64,000 nt of DNA. Origin: Amycolatopsis methanolica 239 (GTDB lineage Bacteria; Actinomycetota; Actinomycetes; Mycobacteriales; Pseudonocardiaceae). Each line of letters begins with the position of its first letter. Position 1 is the stretch's first letter. The stretch spans positions 930,001 through 994,000 of the forward strand of contig NZ_CP009110.1 in the NCBI RefSeq assembly GCF_000739085.1, given 5' to 3'. Position numbers and translations under genes: made by a program. The notes beneath the pieces are model-generated. The model was not told where the DNA came from and made no database searches. It was given only the letters and a program-made list of their open reading frames with translations. Of this stretch, positions 58,404-60,308 are shown in pieces.

Positions 58404-59489
58404 TCAGAGCCACTTGTTCTTCCTGAATATTCGATAGAGAAGCAGGCAGATCCCGAGAATCAGCACGAGAACCGCCGGATACCCGAACTTCCAGCGCAAC
58501 TCCGGCATGTAGTCGAAATTCATGCCGTAAATACCCGCGATCATCGTGGGAACGGTGATCATGGCCGCCCACGAGGTGATCTTGCGCATGTCGGTGTTCT
58601 GCTGGAGCGTGATCTTGGCGACCGTGGCGTTCACCAGGGTCGTCAGCAGCTCGTCGAAGTTGCCCACCCGCTCCGACACGGTGGTCAGGTGGTCGTCGAC
58701 GTCGCGGAAGTACGACCGGACCTCGTCGGGGACCAGCCGGGTGAAGCCCTCCGCCAGCCTCCGCACCGGCGTGACCAGCGGCATCACCGCGCGGCGCAGC
58801 TCCAGCACCTCGCGTTTCATGAGGTAGATCTGCTCGGCGCTGACCGACGAGCGGGGCGCGAACACCCGCGCCTCCATCTCGTCGATGTCGTCCTCGATCG
58901 AGGAGGTGACGTCGAGGTACTGGTCGACGATGAGGTCGGTGATGGCGTGCAGCACCGCGGCCGGGCCGTTCGTCAGCCGCTCCGGGTCCTCGTCGAGGTC
59001 GCGGCGCAGCCGGGCCAGGCCGGAGTGCGCCCCGTGCCGGACGGTGATGATGAAGTCCAGCCCGAGGAACGCCATCAGCTCGCCGGTCTCCACGATCTCG
59101 TTGGCCGTGGTCGGCGACTCGTGCTCGACGTAGCGGACCGTCTTGAGCACCATGAACAGCGTGTCGTCGTAGCGCTCCAGCTTGGGCCGCTGGTGCGCCT
59201 GCACGGCGTCCTCCACGGCCAGCTCGTGCAGGCCGTAGACCTCCGCGATGCCCTGGATCTGCTGCTGGTCCGGCTCGTGCAGTCCGATCCAGACGAACCC
59301 GTCGCGCCGGCGCCGGACCTCCTTGATGGCCTCGGCGTGCGTCCAGCGCCCGGGCAGCCGCTCGCCGTCGACGTACACGGCGCAGTCGACGATGTAGGCA
59401 GACACGGGCACCGGCACGGGCGGCTCGACCCGGCCGGCTCGGCCGTTGCCCCGGCCGCGCAGGCCGCCGAGGGAGGGAATCGCAGGCAT
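58404..59489 (-). CDS. corA: Magnesium/cobalt channel CorA
   Basis: The 361-aa pentameric channel has a large cytosolic N-domain (residues 1-300) and two C-terminal helices. The pore signature G322-M323-N324 is in YGMNFDYMPE, with TVPTMIAGI before it. The basic C-terminus RKNKWL is typical. ATG 59489 is preceded by AGGAG. Rv1239c corA also lies next to sugC. A 25-codon leader ORF and an inverted repeat stand upstream, suggesting post-transcriptional control. Confidence 0.95.
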   Translation of the reverse strand: MPAIPSLGGLRGRGNGRAGRVEPPVPVPVSAYIVDCAVYVDGERLPGRWTHAEAIKEVRRRRDGFVWIGLHEPDQQQIQGIAEVYGLHELAVEDAVQAHQRPKLERYDDTLFMVLKTVRYVEHESPTTANEIVETGELMAFLGLDFIITVRHGAHSGLARLRRDLDEDPERLTNGPAAVLHAITDLIVDQYLDVTSSIEDDIDEMEARVFAPRSSVSAEQIYLMKREVLELRRAVMPLVTPVRRLAEGFTRLVPDEVRSYFRDVDDHLTTVSERVGNFDELLTTLVNATVAKITLQQNTDMRKITSWAAMITVPTMIAGIYGMNFDYMPELRWKFGYPAVLVLILGICLLLYRIFRKNKWL

Positions 59490-59558
59490 GGGATCTCCTG
59501 GCTTTCGCAGTGCGTACCACGACCGCCGGGCGGGCAGGAATGCGTCCGCTCGGCTCTA

Positions 59559-59626
59559 CCAGCGTTTCCCGGGCGAAATGGCCTAAGGCGCGGAAATGGT
59601 TCCGGCCACGTGGAGGGAAACGCTGG
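59559..59626 (-). promoter_or_regulatory. 12-bp inverted repeat in corA leader
   Basis: CCAGCGTTTCCC (59559-59570) and GGGAAACGCTGG (59615-59626) pair perfectly. TGGCC (59579-59583) and GGCCA (59604-59608) nest inside. On the corA transcript one arm lies within the leader ORF and the other just after its stop, so a translating ribosome would decide if the stem forms. A weaker TCCTG/CAGGA pairing could cover the corA ribosome site. Confidence 0.6.
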
Positions 59627-59660
59627 GTTTACTAGGGAGCGGACTATCGCCACTACTCAT
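59583..59660 (-). CDS. 25-residue leader peptide upstream of corA
   Basis: This leader encodes MSSGDSPLPSKPSVS then LHVAGTISAP. GAGGAGGTGAGG precedes ATG 59660. It uses codons rare in this genome (four AGT, AAA, CCT, ATT), unlike real proteins here, which would slow ribosomes. Three prolines in codons 7-12 recall proline-sensing magnesium leaders such as mgtL. The stop lies 94 nt before corA. Function as an attenuator leader is inferred. Confidence 0.5.
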   Translation of the reverse strand: MSSGDSPLPSKPSVSLHVAGTISAP

Positions 59661-59804
59661 CTTGCGTTCCTCACCTCCTCCAGCCGGACCGGCAACGTGG
59701 CGGCTGTCGCGTTGACGCACCGCCGCCATTGGTCGAGGGTACTCCTCAACATCAGTTGACGTCGCTCCAGGTCGGTGTGGCGTTACCCGCAGGGAGGTCG
59801 ACCA
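59661..59804. promoter_or_regulatory. Divergent promoter region corA leader / MaoC gene
   Basis: TTGACG at 59756-59761 could be a -35 for the MaoC gene, but no good -10 at normal spacing follows. Nothing convincing is seen for the corA direction. The MaoC ribosome site AGGGAGG lies at 59791-59797. Confidence 0.35.
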
Positions 59805-60308
59805 GTGCAGTTCGGGCGGTACTTCGAGGAGTTCGAGGTGGGTGCGGTGTACAAGCACTGGCCAGGCAAGACGGTGACCGAGTACGACGACCACCTGTTC
59901 TGCCTGCTCACCATGAACCACCACCCGCTGCACATGGACGCGCACTACGCGGCGGAGACCACCGACTTCGGCAAGAACGTCGTGGTGGGCAACTACATCT
60001 ACTCGCTGCTGCTGGGCATGTCGGTGCCGGACGTGTCGGGCAAGGCGATCGCCAACCTGGAGATCGAGTCGCTGCGGCACGTCAAGCCGACCTTCCACGG
60101 TGACACCATCTACGGTGAGACCGAGGTGCTGGACAAGACCCCGTCGAAGTCGAAGGACGACCGGGGCGTGGTGTACGTGGAGACCCGGGGCTACAAGCAG
60201 GACGGCACGATCGTGTGCATCTTCCGCCGCAAGGTCCTGGTGCCGAAGCAGAACTACGGTGAGGCGCGTGGGGGCGAGCAGCCGGGCCGTCCCGTGCCGC
60301 ACGGGTGA
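59805..60308 (+). CDS. MaoC-type acyl dehydratase (hot-dog fold)
   Basis: The product is 167 aa. The hydratase signature YDDHLFCLLTMNHHPLHMDA carries the catalytic aspartate/asparagine-histidine pair. GKAIANLEIESLRHVKPTFH and GDTIYGETEVLDK follow, as in mesaconyl-CoA or beta-hydroxyacyl hydratases. GTG 59805 has AGGGAGG 7 nt upstream. Ten bases later a DUF2332 gene starts, then an acyl-CoA synthetase, suggesting CoA-thioester metabolism. Confidence 0.87.
   Translation: MQFGRYFEEFEVGAVYKHWPGKTVTEYDDHLFCLLTMNHHPLHMDAHYAAETTDFGKNVVVGNYIYSLLLGMSVPDVSGKAIANLEIESLRHVKPTFHGDTIYGETEVLDKTPSKSKDDRGVVYVETRGYKQDGTIVCIFRRKVLVPKQNYGEARGGEQPGRPVPHG

Follow-up and report, generated by a model that had tools for sequence, protein, structure and literature searches.

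A short leader open reading frame upstream of corA in Amycolatopsis methanolica and its relatives: a probable ribosome-read element with two competing RNA pairings

Described leader ORFs and the corA leader of A. methanolica

The closest described systems are short open reading frames (ORFs) in the leaders of metal-transport genes. The corL ORF of E. coli and Salmonella lies before corA within stem A of a leader that adopts two mutually exclusive structures, A+B (OFF) and C+D (ON) (PMC11552253). In mgtL, the leader ORF of mgtA, early acidic and proline codons are found, and the passage of the ribosome picks the structure (PMC11282234, PMC11552253). The short upstream ORF (uORF) known as uORF2 (Rv1805A), linked to the M-box riboswitch, is conserved, bears a strong Shine-Dalgarno (SD) sequence and a proline at codon 7, belongs to the leader of a metal-transport gene, and has been called specific for mycobacteria, with its function left open; upstream of Rv0115A the M-box is absent, so that the aptamer is not strictly defining for the uORF2 family (PMC12810186). 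Translated actinobacterial uORFs that set downstream expression also accompany the B12 riboswitches of M. tuberculosis (PMC11260477). No report of an actinobacterial corA leader ORF was found among the matches listed in open-access full text by our queries, only some of which named corA. Here, we analyze such a leader ORF in a 64,000-nt stretch (the window) of the 7.24-Mb single-contig genome of Amycolatopsis methanolica 239, upstream of the gene for a CorA-family Mg2+ transporter that is 96% identical to CorA of Amycolatopsis thermalba.

As reported below, the leader ORF (Table 1; features are on the minus strand unless stated) is conserved in the family and contains a strand with two competing partners, whose pairings exceed those of the controls. 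Taken together, the data lead us to regard the leader as a probable cis-acting, ribosome-read element of corA that would work like corL and mgtL. The original prediction, made from the window sequence, was of a 25-codon ORF with a strong ribosome site and a 12-bp inverted repeat, which together looked like a translation-coupled attenuator. The ORF and its SD sequence are there, as are the prolines at codons 7, 9 and 12 (with one more at codon 25), and the codons that it called rare are so in the five window ORFs counted, where AGT makes up 1 of 80 serine, GAT 3 of 98 aspartate and CCT 2 of 103 proline codons. The perfect inverted repeat overlapping the ORF was likewise found (12/12 pairs, 59626-59615 / 59570-59559, arms 44 nt apart), and none of 1000 dinucleotide shuffles of 59490-59660 reached its 12 bp, the shuffle maximum being 11. 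As to the spacings, the second arm begins at the 13th nt past the leader stop, and the distance from this stop to the corA ATG is 93 nt. Missed at first were a second complement of the in-ORF arm, lying in the leader's SD linker, an outer 8-bp extension of the repeat (59644-59637 / 59551-59544), and a further hairpin (59554-59546 / 59533-59525). A conserved leader ORF upstream of corA does overlap one side of a stem that is itself conserved and covaries. The reading of this stem as a simple attenuator hairpin is not borne out: the ORF arm has two competing partners, one of which is the SD linker of the leader itself.

The likeness to corL lies in the short ORF before corA and in the mutually exclusive structures; the hosts belong to different phyla, and the involvement of Rho and the response to Mg2+ are shown for corL only (PMC11552253). 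No sequence similarity between the two leaders was noticed, no dedicated comparison having been made. The feature typical of corL and mgtL, in which a strand of the uORF itself hides the uORF's SD in a fold exclusive with an alternative hairpin, was found in our computations on the family. The mgtL peptide carries EPDP with two acidic residues, whereas the window leader has a single D followed by S-P-x-P (PMC11282234, PMC11552253). The B12 riboswitch uORFs, likened to it by description alone, go with a B12 aptamer and with other genes (PMC11260477). Unlike the M-box uORF2, the window leader has no M-box, precedes corA and belongs to Pseudonocardiaceae; furthermore, the anti-SD sequence, which PMC12810186 places in uORF1, upstream of uORF2, lies in the corA leader inside the ORF itself. 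The earlier description of an unrelated actinobacterial leader therefore stands in part: no likeness to the mgtL sequence was noticed, but the leader matches uORFs behind the M-box riboswitches of another family.

Conservation of the leader ORF and its pairings

The family set was drawn from 557 confirmed corA loci, of which the best 80 were kept; their record titles name Pseudonocardiaceae genera except for one Rhodococcus and one "Actinomycetes bacterium". An SD-driven short ORF was found at the same place in 75 of the 80 (74 plus L065, which enters none of the leader statistics; L078 was masked, and L042 was left out of the cluster statistics). For the cluster statistics, 74 leaders fell into 29 clusters by single linkage on shared 6-letter words. 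The original prediction was to be given up if relatives lacked the ORF or the stem; the ORF recurs, and the stem covaries. Nearly all family leaders listed have the GGAGGTG core of the SD sequence. The strand-2 core, which could be located regardless of frame in 72/75 leaders, stands at ten different distances from the start, yet for 69 of the 72 this distance is divisible by 3. Frame 0 is open in all 72 (the other frames in 18 and 21), and the next stop follows within 45 nt in 71 (the other frames, 14 and 1); the openness and the stop are partly given by construction since short ORFs were sought, but the multiple-of-3 result is not. Such conservation of the frame despite variable spacing has the look of a translated ORF.

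The peptide reads MSSGDSPLPS..SVP in Amycolatopsis and most Prauserella, MSNDPHPASTSRVL in Saccharothrix, MSKDPHPASTKRVL in most Lentzea, MSGTDSAPSTSSVP in Kibdelosporangium and MDPAPGSSTERVP in several Pseudonocardia, its length ranging from 18 to 33 residues and its C-terminal half varying by genus. Prolines 9 and 12 are not family-wide. What the leaders share is an early D or E followed by P within 3 residues (67/75 leaders, 24/29 clusters; a single acidic residue in the window), proline 7 (45/75 corA leaders, 12/29 clusters), and an AGT codon at most 5 codons upstream of a Val codon (73/75). The keeping of AGT rather than AGC before strand 2 is explained by neither pairing nor amino acid, and a loop-E reading of AGUA was dropped, no partner GAA being visible by eye. 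In the leader of Prauserella isguenensis (L042), three copies of a CCGCTCAGTACC-like unit were seen and no Val codon; strand 2 looks lost there.

The two pairings of strand 2, with strand 1 (1:2) and with strand 3 (2:3), were evaluated in several ways. The RNAalifold consensus of 75 leaders consisted of a single 5-bp helix, the core of 2:3. In a checked alignment of 24 leaders, 2:3 together with an inner 4-bp extension was paired in 91.5% of cells vs. 34-45% for slid controls, and 2:3 alone in 93.2%; six double-changed pairs (3 per helix) were counted as compared to 3.0 in shuffles, with 2 of 500 shuffles reaching 6. In a set of 17 Amycolatopsis-type leaders, two double-changed pairs were counted, both from L011. 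An example of the ORF arm matching the SD linker is given by Lentzea (GGTGAGGAC / GTCCTCACC). Over synonymous recoding with the codon counts of five in-frame window ORFs, the 29 clusters gave z 2.09 (p 2.5e-12) for 1:2 and z 0.57 (p 8e-4) for 2:3, with p≤0.05 reached singly in 47/74 and 7/74 leaders, respectively, while the N- and C-terminal parts of the ORF gave z ≤0.20. Dinucleotide shuffles of the same clusters yielded z 2.08 for 1:2 and 1.92 for 2:3, and cognate arms outpaired cluster-swapped arms (permutation p 0.0002 for 1:2, 0/5000 for 2:3). With wider intervals not centred on strand 2, z was 1.32 (p 5e-6) for 1:2. Both pairings thus exceed shuffles and synonymous recoding, 1:2 strongly and 2:3, in the case of recoding, modestly. 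In Allokutzneria (L062, L064), a one-base shift keeps the letters of strand 2 and alters the amino acids. On account of the pairing tests and this shift, strand 2 is kept as RNA, and the early ORF as SD sequence, codons and D..P residues.

Two further elements were considered. The outer stem 2':4 was paired in 96.3% of cells in Amycolatopsis-type leaders and showed no double-changed pair, so it was not retained as a supported element. Hairpin 4:5 measures 9 bp in the window, where it has a single A.C mismatch (p=0.05), and reaches p≤0.05 in 14/22 Amycolatopsis-type and 5/15 Kibdelosporangium/Actinokineospora-type leaders; it was judged per sequence and not by pair counts because MAFFT misaligned strand 5 in the alignment (A3).

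These data bear on the alternative that the leader encodes a small protein acting in trans, e.g., on CorA, as proposed for Rv1805A, with the RNA stems being secondary. The conservation near the N-terminus (D..P; in Amycolatopsis-type and M-box uORFs, SDSP or GDSP) agrees with it, as does the peptide role put forward in PMC12810186, but the length of 18-33 residues, the C-terminal half differing between genera, the frame shift in Allokutzneria that preserves the letters of strand 2 and not its amino acids, and the pairing of strand 2 beyond synonymous recoding all make it unlikely; the biofilm test of the same source came out the same with or without the peptide (PMC12810186).

Table 1. Features of the corA leader in the window
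Feature	Coordinates	Strand	Basis or remark
corA, CorA-family Mg2+ transporter, 361 aa	58404..59489	-	Pfam PF01544, 203 bits
corA Shine-Dalgarno AGGAGA	59494..59499	-	sequence
Strand 5, 3' side of hairpin 4:5, CCGCCCGGC	59525..59533	-	
Strand 4, 5' side of hairpin 4:5, GCCGAGCGG	59546..59554	-	59551-59544 alternatively pairs with 59644-59637
Strand 3, second repeat arm GGGAAACGCTGG, past leader stop	59559..59570	-	
Leader ORF MSSGDSPLPSKPSVSLHVAGTISAP, 25 codons, ATG at 59660, TAG at 59583	59583..59660	-	sequence
Strand 2, first repeat arm CCAGCGTTTCCC, codons 12-16, complementary to strands 1 and 3	59615..59626	-	
AGTA (AGT, a rare Ser codon, plus the base after it), a few bases 5' of strand 2	59630..59633	-	
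Strand 2', GTCCGCTC, codons 6-8, complement of 59551-59544, Amycolatopsis-type	59637..59644	-	
GGC GAT AGT CCG, codons 4-7 (GDSP), block common to M-box-linked uORFs	59640..59651	-	
Strand 1, GGTGAGGAACGC, SD and linker of leader ORF	59664..59675	-	pairing tests with strand 2
Leader Shine-Dalgarno GGAGGTGA	59671..59678	-	sequence; core ends 10 nt before leader ATG
Block GTTGAGGAGTACCCTCGACCA, conserved in Amycolatopsis-type loci, likely promoter	59730..59750	-	between corA and divergent MaoC-like gene

Relation to the uORFs behind M-box riboswitches

Among 249 genomes of the order, a leader model (R1) built solely on the corA leaders of the 80-locus set matched 32, and 31 of these are Pseudonocardiaceae. 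The window genome has one significant place and three more at E 0.7-4; no second significant place was found in that genome, which also encodes a CorA paralogue. Among 36 upstream regions of corA relatives outside the family, there was one clear homologue (L159, MRNDRPCSTSRVPHPVPAGPRG, R1 E 5e-4) and two tentative ones (L175, L158). In two loci of another family of the order (L165, L168), CorA itself opens with an SD-led GRVL stretch resembling the leader motif, which may be chance or a fused leader. The R1 match in another family of the order (genome G296, E 0.008 per genome, which alone is chance level over 249 genomes) reads GAGGAGGTGAGGGACACATGAGTTCTAGCGATAGTCCG, almost the Amycolatopsis leader.

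Among 200 genomes from the order, 16 contain the pattern GAGGTGAGGN{2,9}TGNNNNNNNGCGATAGTCC (12 Pseudonocardiaceae, 4 of the other family); among 151 genomes of the other family, 7 do, two of them shared with the former count. The reversed control gave 0. In nine of the ten pattern loci outside Pseudonocardiaceae, an M-box aptamer scoring 140-150 bits lies immediately upstream; the SD-ATG...GGCGATAGTCC block is thus met again in the other family, some 90 nt past M-box aptamers. When M-boxes alone were sought with Rfam, 24 loci appeared in 11 of 150 genomes, with no Pseudonocardiaceae among the 11; 14 of the 24 carry GGAGGTG and a DSP uORF, all 14 in one genus. A scan of 40 loci (L146-L185) for an SD sequence with a DSP uORF gave one match, L177, itself an M-box locus. 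Starting from Amycolatopsis-type corA leaders, nhmmer returned 14 matches with E<1 (best 2.8e-5) in 34 M-box-type loci (31 distinct, ten pattern-chosen) and none in reverse, but a hidden Markov model from all genera reached 0.055 at best, with its reversed control at 0.16. At the peptide level, MSSGDSPLPSTTSVP (L017, corA) and MSSGDSPSRYLTSVP (L211, M-box) agree in 11/15 residues. The window leader, with MSSGDSP and the SD sequence GGAGGTGAGG, has the strong SD and the proline 7 of the uORF2 description; its likeness to Rv1805A is drawn from that published description, whereas the SD sequence and GGCGATAGTCC are shared letter for letter with the M-box-linked uORFs found here. The M-box family RF00380 was detected neither at the window locus nor at the corA loci of three relatives (L031, L025, L071) nor anywhere in the window's own genome, and no Rfam family came near its gathering score at the window locus.

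Judging by these matches, the ORF before corA is a relative of the M-box uORF that lacks the aptamer, and the homology extends over the SD sequence, the start, the GDSP block and sometimes Val-Pro; a demonstrated switch is not included. The gene behind one M-box uORF (L186) is Nramp by Pfam, and those of L187 and L188 are alike by eye. A third context of the element is L189, where a GDSP-type leader ORF precedes a gene with a TrkA_N domain and no M-box is found. The uORF of L202 is followed by an 84-aa ORF, after which comes an ileS-like frame (by eye), an arrangement of the rv1535 type described for mycobacteria (PMC12810186). At L204 and L205, two divergent M-box aptamers lie some 230-245 bases apart.

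It is a reasonable reading that behind the M-box the anti-SD sequence would stand upstream under aptamer control, and on corA inside the ORF. More tentatively, and with rather more doubt than belief, we suggest that the M-box uORF2 and the Pseudonocardiaceae corA leader could be one portable, translation-based Mg2+ sensor, a relay behind the M-box and acting alone on corA through the ribosome at GAT-AGT-CCG, with the anti-SD sequence moved inside the ORF.

Ribosome position, corA output and alternative explanations

Which of two mutually exclusive hairpins forms is predicted to depend on translation of the leader ORF. In partition functions of the free RNA of 75 leaders, P(1:2) had a median of 0.60 (mean 0.48) and P(2:3) a median of 0.04 (mean 0.28); with the leader start occupied, the median P(2:3) rose to 0.77. 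In a codon-by-codon scan of 29 representatives, 2:3 was most probable when the ribosome covered the first codons and dropped almost to zero when it covered strand 2. According to these folding predictions, the likelier hairpin of ribosome-free RNA would on average be 1:2, in which the leader SD is closed; a ribosome on the first codons would free strand 2 for strand 3, and one further along the ORF would break both hairpins.

The leader is most likely a ribosome-position attenuator of the corL/mgtL kind, and corA expression would likely be set by magnesium through it. At low Mg2+, ribosomes would slow down or drop off at the early D..P codons (GAT AGT CCG), allowing 2:3 to form and corA to be on; at high Mg2+, they would run on and break 2:3, and transcription would stop early, probably via Rho. 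An output of the Rho type is suggested since an intrinsic terminator was not seen and neither was an anti-SD sequence against corA; the analogy with E. coli corA (PMC11552253) and the pe20 M-box leader (PMC12810186) points the same way. In 59480-59830, no intrinsic terminator (GC hairpin and T run) was found vs. 0.2 in shuffles, so that an intrinsic-terminator attenuator was rejected.

Several results weigh against such a cis-acting, ribosome-read element. Four of the 80 corA loci (L047, L050, L054, L060) are without the leader ORF, and DSP is confined to 24/75 leaders. In the M-box uORFs, 1:2 and 2:3 gave z -0.42 and -0.72 when recoded with the codon usage of the window, which is ill-suited to those genomes, and -0.02 and 0.49 in a second test; since neither pairing rises above the controls there, the switch is not a demonstrated shared feature. 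With the wider uncentred intervals, 2:3 fell to z 0.46 (p 0.09), and the minimum free energy of the 213-nt leader is ordinary (z -0.93). The preference of the free RNA for 1:2 is only an average (0.48 vs. 0.28 over 75 leaders, 0.41 vs. 0.32 over 29 representatives), and in the window itself 2:3 is already dominant in the free RNA (1.00), survives a ribosome at codons 1-7 (D5 and P7 included), is lost at 8-18 and returns from 19, with 1:2 predicted only for a ribosome at codons 8-9. The accessibility of the corA SD shifts little across ribosome states (means 0.33 in the free RNA, 0.25 with the start occupied, 0.40, 0.35, and 0.41 at the stop). Pairing of this SD with the upstream leader is no better than in shuffles (z 0.18, p 0.39), nor is that with strand 2 (z -0.10, p 0.61; cognate permutation p 0.18). 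Finally, Mg2+ sensing and the Rho output are, for this leader, inferred.

The figures for the corA SD also bear on a second alternative, translation-coupled initiation of corA, in which leader ribosomes or 2:3 would directly expose or hide that SD. Hairpin 4:5 does sit between strand 3 and the corA SD, the stretch ahead of this SD forms better folds than its shuffled versions do (cluster z 1.30, p 4e-5), and in some leaders CCUCCGG faces CUGGAGG by eye; with the nearly constant accessibility and the absence of pairing above the controls, this coupling is as improbable to us as a trans-acting peptide. Strand 2 as an anti-SD for corA was rejected on the same two p-values (0.18 and 0.61), and so was, as a general device, a domino from strand 5 to the corA SD, good by eye in some genera (p 0.39). 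Least of all do we expect a general stress attenuator, in which the rare AGT and GAT codons would slow ribosomes under any translational stress and magnesium would be incidental: the rare-codon block (GAT AGT, CCT AGT) is kept with few exceptions in the Amycolatopsis-type leaders of alignment A3, and AGT precedes strand 2 in 73/75 leaders, but the element is found on corA and behind magnesium-sensing M-boxes, one of them with the Nramp gene and two with genes alike by eye, the TrkA_N locus without an M-box being the one exception.

Further upstream, block GTTGAGGAGTACCCTCGACCA is strongly conserved in Amycolatopsis-type loci (25 of the 26 loci given were aligned), and a GAGG(A/G)GTAC or GTACCC-type block was found in 44/74 loci. 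Within it, TACCCT (59741-59736) fits TANNNT, which we take to be the actinobacterial -10 motif; a scan with the sigma-70 consensus found no promoter. The block is probably a promoter and perhaps a shared operator of corA and its divergent neighbour, the MaoC-like gene. Its conservation upstream of the ORF in Amycolatopsis-type loci speaks against a transcription start downstream of 59583. At the four loci named above, a promoter-like stretch is seen by eye, yet the leader ORF is absent.

With a relative standing on corA that has no aptamer, the uORF is uncoupled from the riboswitch, and its role becomes testable in harmless soil actinomycetes. If the leader works as proposed, control of corA by a leader ORF and two mutually exclusive RNA folds would occur in a second phylum, in addition to that of the enterobacteria.
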